A DNA stretch of 21,865 bases from positions 1 through 21,865 of the IMG/VR virus record IMGVR_UViG_3300042465_003123, one strand, 5' to 3'. Below are positions 11,437-15,095 of this stretch, piece by piece. How positions within the stretch are numbered: the first letter of the stretch is position 1; each line of letters opens with the position of its first letter. The position numbers and the translations under genes are program-made. The stretch comes from a virus. The notes below the pieces were generated by a model that made no database searches, had not been told where the DNA came from, and saw nothing but the letters and a program-made list of their open reading frames with translations.

Positions 11437-11795
11437 CTAGACTAGAAGAGGTACAATACATCATAGATAAATTTGATCTTAAAGAAAAATGCAGGTATAT
11501 GCCTATACTATATCGGAGATATTACCTATATCATGTACTCCAAAAGGATGGCATGACACTATCTCAGATAGGTAGGCTGTTTAATCAGAGCCATGCAACA
11601 GTTATCAATGGTATGACTAAGCACAATATATACACAAAGCAAAAAGATCCTGCTTATATGCTGCACACAAAAGAGCTCAGAGAGCAGTTTGTACTACCAC
11701 AATATTATAAGCCACTTAAACAGCGTGTTTTGGAGTGCTACACTATTGATAAATTAGAGAAACTTAAAGAGCAGATCAGATGCAATTACTATTAA
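11433..11795 (+). CDS. DnaA domain IV-like DNA-binding protein, candidate origin binder
   Basis: A 120-residue protein with a DnaA C-terminal (domain IV)-like segment at about 30-64: YYLYHVLQKDGMTLSQIGRLFNQSHATVINGMTK. The signature LSxIGxxFxxxHxTV matches that of DnaA (family pattern: LxxIGxxFxRxHxTVxxA), with the recognition helix around NQSHATVINGM. There is no AAA+ domain, so it is only the DNA-contact part. It is the last early gene, and about 10 bases after its stop lies the first (inverted) copy of the origin-like iterons. It may bind those repeats, recruit the replicase or repress the next promoter. The fold call is strong; the target is inferred. Confidence 0.75.
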   Translation: MTRLEEVQYIIDKFDLKEKCRYMPILYRRYYLYHVLQKDGMTLSQIGRLFNQSHATVINGMTKHNIYTKQKDPAYMLHTKELREQFVLPQYYKPLKQRVLECYTIDKLEKLKEQIRCNYY

Positions 11796-11805
11796 AAAAT
11801 GACGC

Positions 11806-11991
11806 TATGACAAATTCTCTTATTAGGGGAGGTTGGGAAACATTTGAAAATTCAAATAATTTTTTTCGTTTTATTTCTCGTCATCTTGTCATAAAATCGC
11901 TAATACTCAATAGCAGTGCGGATTTTGCTAAAAAAAACTTGTCATAAACTTGTCATAAACCCGTCATAAAATACCCTAAACTTGTCATGAT
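11806..11991. other. putative replication origin with 11-base iterons
   Basis: Between the DnaA-IV-like gene and the primase-helicase lies a 238-base gap full of TTGTCATAAA-type repeats. Three copies stand in perfect tandem: CTTGTCATAAA (11938-11948), CTTGTCATAAA (11949-11959), CCCGTCATAAA (11960-11970). Another is at 11885-11895 with a partial copy TCGTCAT at 11878-11884, a fifth CTTGTCATGA at 11981-11990, and an inverted copy TATGACAA at 11806-11813. The 11-base period is about one helical turn. An A/T-rich stretch (AATTCAAATAATTTTTTT, 11850-11867) could serve as an unwinding element. Iterons next to a replicase gene are a standard origin layout. Confidence 0.7.
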
Positions 11992-12013
11992 TAAGAATAA
12001 ATGTGTATATTTA
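11982..12013 (+). promoter_or_regulatory. promoter of the replicase gene, overlapping the last iteron
   Basis: TTG at 11982-11984 sits inside the fifth iteron copy, and TATATTTA at 12006-12013 follows after 21 bases, one base off the TAnnTTTG box. The leader carries AACTAACCAA (12021-12030) just before the ATG. Overlap of the -33 element with an iteron suggests autoregulation by whatever binds the repeats. Confidence 0.6.
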
Positions 12014-12033
12014 CAGCCTAAACTAACCAATAT

Positions 12034-14358
12034 ATGAACATATCAGTATTTAAATCCCTCTTCAATTCTAAAGAAACACCCTACACTCAAGATGTGGTGG
12101 ATGTGTACAATAGAATTAAGGAAGGGTACCCAGAATTAATAGAAAAGATTACAGCCCTTAGAGGGATGGATGAGGATGATCCTGCATACAGCAGCTTAAA
12201 GAATAGCCTAAGAGCTATCATGTTTAATGGCACCTTTAATGAACGTAATGATAACGGCCTAATAGAGCACTCAGGGCTTTGTATCTTAGATTTTGATGAT
12301 TACCCTAGCGCTGAGGTGATGGAAGCTGAGAAGGTAAGGCTAATGAACTGTACTAATGTCTTTATGATATTTGTATCACCATCAGGTAAAGGCTTAAAGT
12401 GCGTGATTAAGATACCACCATCTGATAAATTCACCCATAAGAGAAGGTTTAAAGCTTTTGAGGAGTTTATTGATAGTGATTACTTTGATGCATCCAGCTG
12501 TAATGTTAGCAGGGTATGTTTTGAGTCCTACGATCCTACTGCTTATATCAATTTAGATGCTGAGGTATTTAATCTTATAGAAGAGGAGAAAGGGCATAGC
12601 TCTTTTGAGAGAGTGCCAGTGCTACCCATGACTAATGAAGGTAAGATTATTGAGAACATCATGAAGTTTAATCATGGAGATATATCTAATGGTAGAAATA
12701 ATTGGGTATTTAAAGTAGCTAGCTGTTTTGCGGAGTATGGCATAAGTGAGAATACTGCTAAGCTATACCTGCACCAATTTAGTGATAAAGGATTTAGCCA
12801 AATAGAAATTAATACCTGTGTAGGATCTGCTTACAAGAGAAGCAATAAAAACACTAAGTACTTTGAGGATAAAGAAACTATCTTAAAGGTTAAATCTAAA
12901 CTTAAGGAAGGGATTACACCTGGTGATATCTCTAAGCAGTTAGATATTAAGCCTGATGTGATAGAGGATGTAAAAAAAGAGGTAGCTAATAGTGAGGATA
13001 CATTCTGGGCTATTAGTGATAAGAAAGTTATCTCTGTGGATCCTATGAAGTATAGAGATTTCCTGAATAAATACGGCTTCCAAAAATACTACCCTGAAAG
13101 AGCAGAACGTTCTACATTTGTGAGGGTGGTAGAGAACAAAGTTAACCTCAGCTCAGTGGATCAGATAAAGGATTTTGTGCTAGGGCATCTAATGAAGCAG
13201 AAGCAGGTGGATGTATGGAACTACTGTAGCAAATCACCCTACCTCTTTACAGATGGGCACCTTTCAATGCTAGATCCTATTGAGCTAATGATGCTACAGG
13301 ATACTAAGGATGTGAGCTTTATCCCTTATCGTAATGGAGTAGTTAAGATTACTAAGAATAAGGTGGATATAGTACCGTACATAGATATAGATGGTTATAT
13401 CTGGGATAGGCAAATTATAGACAGGAACTATAAGCCAACTAAGACCATTCAAAATGATTTCAAGAGCTTTGTATCCAAAGTATCTGCAGATGATGAGCAG
13501 AGGGTAAACGCTTTAGAGACTACCCTAGGTTATTTACTGCATACCTACAAAGATAAAACAGATCAGAAGGCAATAATCTTTAATGATCAGGAGATAGATG
13601 ATAATCCTAATGGAGGTAGTGGTAAGAGCTTAGTGCTAACTGCTATTGGTAAGATTAGAAATATAGTAAAGATAGATGGTAAGAGCTTCAACCCACAGAA
13701 GAGTGATTTCGTATATCAGAGGGTAAATTTAGATAGTCAGATCCTAGCCTTTGATGATGTAAAAAAGAATTTTGATTTTGAGCAGTTATTCTCACTGATC
13801 TCAGAAGGAATTACAGTGAATAGAAAAAACAAAGATGAGATCTTTATCCCATTTGAACGCTCCCCTAAGATTGTGATTACTACCAACTATGTGATAAGTG
13901 GTGCAGGTGGTAGCCATGATAGGAGAAGGCATGAGATAGAGTTTAATCAGTACTTTAATGCTCAGAGGAGCCCACTAGATGAGTATGGGAGGTTATTATT
14001 TGATCACTGGACTGCATTAGATTGGTTAATCTTTGATAATTACATGATAAGTAACCTGCAGAAATTCCTTTCAATGGGCTTAGTTAAATCAATAGCTATC
14101 AATGCTGATCACAAAAGGTTTATTTCAGCTACTAACAAGGAGTTTTATGATTACGCTATAGAGGGTAATATCACAAATGATGTGGTACACTATAACAATG
14201 CATCCATTCAGGACTTTCAGGCTTACACAGGTGGATGGAGTGATCTTAATGCTCAGACTTATCTACGTATGATTAGTGAGTACTGTAAGTTTAAGAAATT
14301 CAAATTAGAGAAGGGTAGAAGTGCAGGAGGGAGGTATTTTAAAATTACTAAGGTATGA
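12034..14358 (+). CDS. primase-helicase (VirE_N/BT4734-like primase fused to SF3-type helicase)
   Basis: A 774-residue replication protein. The N-terminal ~180 residues match the BT4734-like/VirE_N primase domain: ILDFDDY (D86, D88) and VSPSGKGLK (about 112-120), followed by a helical linker (NWVFKVASCFAEYGI). The C-terminal ~300 residues are a helicase: Walker A NGGSGKS (G527-S532), Walker B LAFDDVK (D574, D575), a sensor-like KIVITTNY (about 612-619) and a charged DRRRHEIEF arginine-finger candidate just after. This form is common in Bacteroidota mobile elements and phages and would prime and unwind DNA at the neighbouring iterons. Its stop overlaps the next start (ATGA). Confidence 0.85.
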   Translation: MNISVFKSLFNSKETPYTQDVVDVYNRIKEGYPELIEKITALRGMDEDDPAYSSLKNSLRAIMFNGTFNERNDNGLIEHSGLCILDFDDYPSAEVMEAEKVRLMNCTNVFMIFVSPSGKGLKCVIKIPPSDKFTHKRRFKAFEEFIDSDYFDASSCNVSRVCFESYDPTAYINLDAEVFNLIEEEKGHSSFERVPVLPMTNEGKIIENIMKFNHGDISNGRNNWVFKVASCFAEYGISENTAKLYLHQFSDKGFSQIEINTCVGSAYKRSNKNTKYFEDKETILKVKSKLKEGITPGDISKQLDIKPDVIEDVKKEVANSEDTFWAISDKKVISVDPMKYRDFLNKYGFQKYYPERAERSTFVRVVENKVNLSSVDQIKDFVLGHLMKQKQVDVWNYCSKSPYLFTDGHLSMLDPIELMMLQDTKDVSFIPYRNGVVKITKNKVDIVPYIDIDGYIWDRQIIDRNYKPTKTIQNDFKSFVSKVSADDEQRVNALETTLGYLLHTYKDKTDQKAIIFNDQEIDDNPNGGSGKSLVLTAIGKIRNIVKIDGKSFNPQKSDFVYQRVNLDSQILAFDDVKKNFDFEQLFSLISEGITVNRKNKDEIFIPFERSPKIVITTNYVISGAGGSHDRRRHEIEFNQYFNAQRSPLDEYGRLLFDHWTALDWLIFDNYMISNLQKFLSMGLVKSIAINADHKRFISATNKEFYDYAIEGNITNDVVHYNNASIQDFQAYTGGWSDLNAQTYLRMISEYCKFKKFKLEKGRSAGGRYFKITKV

Positions 14359-15095
14359 TACAGATACAATATGCTTTTAAAGATGGCATCAGATATGATA
14401 TTAACGATCCACTGGTAGAGACAGGGCAAAGGTATTTATTGATAGATGGTGCAATTGAATATCAAGTATATCCTGCAAAAGGTGATAAAAATAATCATCA
14501 CTTTAGATCAATGCCAGGTGAACTAATAGAAGTTGATAGAATTTTTCATTTGAACTGCCAGTACTATATTCAGGATAATAAAAAAGTAGAGCTAGATAAT
14601 TTAACAATTAAATGTGATAAGGTATTGCTAGAAGCTGAGGCTGCTAGATATATAAAAGTAAAGATACCTGATTACTCTATGAGACCTGATTGTTTATTTT
14701 TAGATAGTGATGGTGAGATCATGTGCATAGTGGAGGTAAATGTAACACATGCAAAAAGTTATGAGGATATAGAAAAAATTGAACAGTATAAAATACCAAC
14801 TATAGAACTAACATATGGAAAAAGAAAAGATAATTATAAGCAACCTATCAGAACTGAATGGTTATATTTTAGAGAAGAAGAAAGCTACGAAATTGAGATT
14901 AGAAACCGAATTGCAGCAGGTCATATATCAATACAACAAGCATATGCTAAATACAAAGAAACTGATAAACACATACGAGCTTTTAACACCAGAGTTAGAC
15001 CAAGCAGAACTATTGAACAGCTTAGAGAACAAATTGATTTTACTACAGGAAGAATTAAATTCATTGATGCCTGCTTTCAAGAAGTATTGGGATAA
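14355..15095 (+). CDS. putative PD-(D/E)XK-type nuclease (CoiA-like), unassigned
   Basis: A 246-residue protein of uncertain identity. Residues 45-155 resemble CoiA-like proteins: HHFRS (48-52), then IFHLNCQYYI (63-72), and a nuclease-like core IPDYSMRPDCLFLDSDGE...IVEVNVTH (104-132), where D112 and E127 could be catalytic; the expected Lys after the Glu is replaced (VEVN), so activity is uncertain. From about 155 onward the sequence is a charged helical tail. Nucleotides 14815-15095 are also open in another frame on the same strand. Codon use here (GAA, AGA, A-rich) differs from the flanking genes, suggesting separate origin. It may act on DNA ends during replication or recombination; that is inference. 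Confidence 0.5.
   Translation: MIQIQYAFKDGIRYDINDPLVETGQRYLLIDGAIEYQVYPAKGDKNNHHFRSMPGELIEVDRIFHLNCQYYIQDNKKVELDNLTIKCDKVLLEAEAARYIKVKIPDYSMRPDCLFLDSDGEIMCIVEVNVTHAKSYEDIEKIEQYKIPTIELTYGKRKDNYKQPIRTEWLYFREEESYEIEIRNRIAAGHISIQQAYAKYKETDKHIRAFNTRVRPSRTIEQLREQIDFTTGRIKFIDACFQEVLG

Follow-up and report, generated by a model that had tools for sequence, protein, structure and literature searches.

The window, 21,865 bases in length, is the entire IMG/VR record IMGVR_UViG_3300042465_003123, and all positions are given in its coordinates. Inspection of its letters revealed an array of eight GTCAT sites (span 11799-11988) between a gene for a small protein resembling domain IV of DnaA (hereafter DnaA-IV) and the gene for a primase-helicase (hereafter the replicase; Table 1). 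The sites are ordered as an inverted pair (11799 and 11807), a direct pair (11880 and 11888), three tandem cores (11941, 11952 and 11963) and a promoter site (11984), and the 8-base spacing GTCAT-N3-GTCAT is common to the inverted pair and the two leftmost direct sites. The preliminary description of this DNA had listed tandem, further direct and partial copies together with one inverted copy; all of these were found again, at correct coordinates, on re-reading the sequence, but one inverted copy had been overlooked. Since this second inverted site, ATGAC, lies directly 3′ of the DnaA-IV stop codon, we place the start of the array at 11799. The array is real, its density being far above chance: the eight GTCAT sites within 200 bp compare with at most five in any of 300 shuffles of the whole window that preserved dinucleotides, and the five copies of the top 7-mer within 238 bp were matched in none of 5,000 shuffles of the region. 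Folded as a single strand, the window's array gave no hairpin signal (z 0.31), and an Rfam search with the window and five loci returned no match up to E 0.5.

Table 1. Coordinates of the genes, repeat sites and other elements at the array locus of the window.
Feature	Position	Strand	Evidence
DnaA domain IV-only protein, 120 aa	11433-11795	+	Bac_DnaA_C profile, structure comparisons
Inverted site 1, ATGAC	11799-11803	-	ATGAC-N3-ATGAC pair kept in many relatives
Inverted site 2, TTGTCATAGC on the minus strand	11804-11813	-	Sequence inspection
TTCTCTTATTAG element adjoining the inverted pair	11815-11826	+	Similar sequence in most class A/B and some other relatives
T-rich stretch, candidate unwinding region	11858-11877	+	Position conserved among relatives
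Direct pair GTCAT-N3-GTCATAAA, 8-base spacing (partial copy with GTCAT at 11880; TTGTCATAAA at 11886-11895)	11880-11895	+	Repeat search, alignment
31-bp core element	11900-11930	+	Weight-matrix score 10.4 in the window
Three tandem 11-bp repeats: CTTGTCATAAA (11938-11948), CTTGTCATAAA (11949-11959), CCCGTCATAAA (11960-11970)	11938-11970	+	Sequence inspection
Last repeat CTTGTCAT; includes TTG 11982-11984, candidate -33 element	11981-11988	+	Sequence/promoter comparison
TATATTTA, candidate Bacteroidota-type -7 element	12006-12013	+	TAnnTTT(A/G) here in many relatives
Primase-helicase, 774 aa, proposed repeat reader	12034-14358	+	BT4734-like_N (AEP), PriCT_1, SF3-like helicase
Winged-helix-like domain, C-terminal, residues 702-773; candidate origin-binding domain	14137-14352	+	AF2

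Both neighbours are of the kind named in the preliminary description. The left protein matches Bac_DnaA_C with an E value of 1.8e-5, under the Pfam cut-off, and the solved structures closest to it are DNA-binding domains of DnaA: its profile matches 1j1v and 3pvp, and the top Foldseek match of its AF2 model (pLDDT 88.5) is the DNA-binding domain of Mycobacterium tuberculosis DnaA, with a probability of 0.97 but an E value of 0.5. It consists of domain IV only, without the AAA+ ATPase domain. The right protein has Pfam matches to BT4734-like_N (PF08800) and PriCT_1 and carries Walker A/B helicase motifs; among relatives, the residues of its GGSGKS, FDD and TTN motifs are invariant or nearly so. 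A sequence-profile search of solved structures found no match for the replicase. Its model was matched best by the SaPI5 primase-helicase (7ola, E 9e-10) in Foldseek, with AsfvPrimPol, monkeypox virus (MPXV) E5 and the C-terminal region of NrS-1 also among the closest matches. The C-terminal domain, with the AF2 order H-E-H-H-E-E and a block pLDDT of about 83-94, is predicted to be winged-helix-like.

The TTG inside the last repeat lies 21 bases before TATATTTA, and the two together make a plausible Bacteroidota-type promoter of the replicase; the hosts of these environmental phages are probably Bacteroidota. As claimed previously, the repeats are not DnaA boxes. Indeed, matches to TTATNCACA with at most one mismatch numbered 32 over the loci, versus 62 expected, and a DnaA/oriC-type origin is contradicted both by this deficit and by the missing AAA+ domain of the left protein.

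Conservation of the array among related phages

From four scans over viral contigs and a search of a phage collection we obtained 105 non-redundant loci, 84 of them above 50% replicase identity. An array upstream of the same primase-helicase, which the preliminary description had proposed to look for in relatives, occupies the corresponding place in each of the 84. The repeat word is TTGTCAT in 10 of these loci, GCGTCAT in 19, TCGTCAT in 8, ATCGTCAC in 16, TGTCGCG/TGTAACG in 23, GTAGTGAT in 3 and ATCGTCTT in 2, and is mixed in 3. Words are thus specific to lineages (GTCAT, GTCAC, GTCGC/GTAAC, GTGAT, GTCTT), while the layout is one and the same. Within an array all sites change word together, as expected if one protein reads them. 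In the larger records, each scanned with its own word, the densest cluster of the word was the array.

An alignment of 22 representatives gave the usual order as inverted pair, T-/G-rich stretch, direct pair about 8 bp apart and 31-bp core, followed in most of them by an inverted site, direct sites and the promoter. In the window's class no inverted site follows the core, and additional tandem repeats stand there instead; in class E and in L178/L269 the T-rich stretch is partly replaced by a G-tract. The core (consensus AAAnTCAAT-N5-ATTGAnTTT-like, with weak dyad symmetry) is present in nearly all loci above 50% identity and in most classes, whatever the repeat word. A hairpin in the core was considered and rejected: the consensus is symmetric but covariation is absent.

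In 77 of the 84 loci a DnaA-IV gene encoding 80 residues or more lies upstream. Five of the other seven are on contigs that end in or before this gene; the remaining two, L172 and L173, gave no DnaA-IV match anywhere in their records of 35 and 16 kb. These two loci have kept the array (ATCGTCTT) and lost the 31-bp core, which is weak in L163/L165 as well; in L173 an HTH-like ORF lies upstream. In a distant clade (36-41% replicase identity) there was neither an array upstream of the replicase nor an adjacent DnaA-IV gene; the missing array counts against the origin reading set out below. In two of the three records of that clade examined the DnaA-IV gene lies about 2 kb downstream of the replicase, and no convincing array was seen near it. 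Relatives sought in GTDB genomes gave 14 pattern matches, none of which was confirmed.

The repeat word matches the replicase

The preliminary description had suggested a private initiator-site pair, with the 11433 protein as the implied partner. The pair itself is borne out by sequence comparison; its partner is not, as natural swaps and trees show the word tracking the 12034 protein instead. In L046 and L025 the DnaA-IV proteins are 99.2% identical, while the words differ (GTAGTGAT versus GCGTCAT) and the replicases are 67% identical. L009, L028 and L034 present the reverse case when compared with L011: the DnaA-IV proteins are 28-29% identical, the array word is the same and the replicases are 97-98% identical. 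At the DNA level, L046/L047 and L025 share 94-100% identity over most of the DnaA-IV gene, about 50% over the array and about 48-91% per block of the replicase; past the replaced segment, starting at the next shared gene, most blocks are again 90-100% identical, and L047 and L025 agree at 99.4% over 2.3 kb. An equal break after the DnaA-IV gene recurs in L045 and L051, on other backgrounds and from other metagenomes, so that a single assembly error is unlikely.

On quick, partly unresolved trees the word must have changed at least four times along the replicase tree and six times along the DnaA-IV tree, and the correlation with the array word is 0.75 for replicase identity and 0.56 for DnaA-IV identity. 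The DnaA-IV proteins of L009/L021/L028/L034, whose word is GTCAT, group with those of L063/L067 (GTCAC) with 98% support. The gene after the replicase varies freely among GTCAT loci (methyltransferase-like, none or an unrelated ORF) and is therefore not the word's partner. In these comparisons the repeat word matches the replicase and not DnaA-IV, and by elimination its partner, as judged from sequence, is the replicase.

That the DnaA-IV-like protein reads the repeats in the manner of DnaA boxes and recruits the replicase is thus very unlikely. The almost constant adjacency of its gene to the array, its domain IV fold and the loss of the core in the sole lineage without it would suit such a role, but not the near-identical DnaA-IV proteins beside different words, those of 29% identity beside the same word, the well-supported grouping of GTCAT- with GTCAC-locus proteins, or the persistence of the array in L172/L173. 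We consider it highly improbable that a host factor, or a phage protein encoded elsewhere, reads the sites. Host proteins could contribute, and the phage genes compared are a subset of all phage genes; however, L047 and L025 are near-identical outside the swap, both beyond it and in the DnaA-IV gene, and so probably share a host and similar other genes, yet their arrays differ.

The DnaA domain IV protein sits beside a predicted origin that is apparently not read by it, which turns its role into a testable question. A possible, though rather doubtful, answer is an origin with two readers, in which the replicase would read the fast-changing word and DnaA-IV would read the core and help opening or loading. 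On the same arrangement, which we offer just as tentatively, array and replicase would move between phages as a specificity cassette and DnaA-IV would stay behind. Binding of DnaA-IV to the core is a prediction from one lineage, L172/L173.

Within the replicase, a class-association scan of segments against the repeat word singled out no DNA-binding region or single domain. No residues separated the TTGTCAT from the GCGTCAT subclass, which suggests that discrimination extends to the pentamer core at most. The pairs L046/L025 and L009/L011 offer natural specificity swaps with which the origin-binding domain of a BT4734-like primase-helicase could be located.

A predicted iteron-type origin

The preliminary description had taken the array for the phage replication origin, and this is still its best reading, given that all 84 loci share the position and that the word tracks the replicase. 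Comparative sequence and analogy make it likely that the array is an origin of iteron type to which the phage's own AEP primase/SF3-like helicase (12034-14358) binds. The pentamer-core sites, direct and inverted, flank the T-rich stretch and the 31-bp core. We infer that the replicase would bind these sites, probably through its modelled C-terminal winged-helix domain, that the bound protein would assemble as helicase rings and open the DNA, and that the fused primase domain would then start synthesis. In the window and its close relatives, where the last site lies over the replicase promoter, the same binding may also limit replicase synthesis.

The window's pattern, in which a primase-helicase is linked to iterons beside it, is also that of SaPI Rep, Cch2 and P4 alpha. 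Cch2 of SCCmec reads the pentamer AAGTG via its C-terminal domain, and SaPI Rep likewise reads short iterons C-terminally (PMC7581432); P4 alpha binds its origin repeats through a winged helix (PMC4234260). Features of this type seen in the window are primase and helicase domains, multiple short repeats adjoining the initiator gene and, as far as comparative sequence can indicate, a repeat specific to the cognate initiator. SaPI Rep and Cch2 resemble the window's system in combining a D5/SF3-type primase-helicase or helicase with short iterons next to its gene, and SaPI5 Rep is also the best fold match. However, the SaPI origin lies downstream of rep, whereas the window's array is upstream, at the replicase's own promoter region and next to a separate DnaA-IV gene. 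P4 alpha shares the union of primase and helicase in one protein, and the winged-helix domain (here a candidate from the model), but its primase is of TOPRIM type rather than AEP. Fusions of the AEP-PriCT-helicase kind are characteristic of mobile elements (PMC5862659), and the replicase resembles their BT4734-like primases in the fusion of PF08800 to PriCT_1; in the papers searched we came across no account of an origin for this family of primases. The presence of a DnaA domain IV gene beside the array recalls bacterial oriC, from which the window differs in that its repeats neither correspond to DnaA boxes nor follow DnaA-IV, and in the missing AAA+ domain. The iteron-origin type itself is thus known; what is new is a family of such origins in which a BT4734-like primase-helicase has a separate DnaA-IV gene as neighbour, and we found no description of it in open-access papers. 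An environmental phage family thereby gains a concrete predicted origin, with an initiator named from natural recombination and not by guess.

It had also been proposed that the minimum of GC skew might fall at the array. Neither in the window nor in eight larger records was there a minimum or turning point there; across whole records, two of them with end repeats of 123 bases, skew is nearly monotonic, so this test is uninformative and gives no origin signal.

Array and promoter overlap, as previously noted, in classes A, B and F; in C and E they do not, the sites being well upstream of the promoter and a structured leader following it. Promoter occlusion is therefore not the conserved function, and an origin is a better explanation than an operator alone. 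In the latter case the replicase, or a linked product, would repress the replicase promoter through the sites and the origin would be elsewhere. Phages commonly have direct and inverted operators, and the last site does cover the promoter in three classes; but with the arrangement in classes C/E, and with a T-rich stretch and a conserved core set among sites that extend over about 190 bp, we judge this unlikely. Short direct and inverted sites surrounding a core of some 30 bp also recall the layout of attP, in which the repeats would be arm-type sites for an integrase. This reading is contradicted, to the point of being next to impossible, by the absence of tyrosine integrase (PF00589) matches from all 11 records of 21.9-36.8 kb and by the link of the word to the replicase.

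Other features around the array

The class C/E leader, absent from the window, occupies the gap between array and replicase (L053:2975-3060, L079:4275-4362 and others). It forms a hairpin with a GAGTA/GAAA internal loop (loop E-like), whose loop can base-pair with an arm lying upstream (GATGCAG/CTGCATC or ATGGCGC/GCGCCAT), and a T run comes after it. The inner stems differ in sequence but remain paired (CCG/CGG, GCG/CGC, AACG/CGTT, AGCA/TGCT, AACA/TGTT, AATC/GATT, AACC/GGTT). L053 and L079 had no Rfam match up to E 0.5, and the element is possibly an undescribed attenuator of the replicase.

In class B (for example, L010:4762-4998) an ORF of 69-78 codons spans the whole array and in most such loci stops 3 bases short of the replicase start; in the window (11780-11947) the frame is interrupted, and outside class B it is not kept. 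The slot after the replicase is hypervariable: in the window (14355-15095) it holds a 246-aa ORF without a Pfam match, in L025 a methyltransferase-like ORF (DPPYG), in L047 a 53-aa ORF and in L009 apparently nothing. Finally, contig IMGVR_UViG_3300027754_000223 (37,405 bp) carries the replicase locus twice (L014 and L015), about 27.8 kb apart; these coordinates suggest a unit genome near 28 kb and a contig assembled past one genome length.
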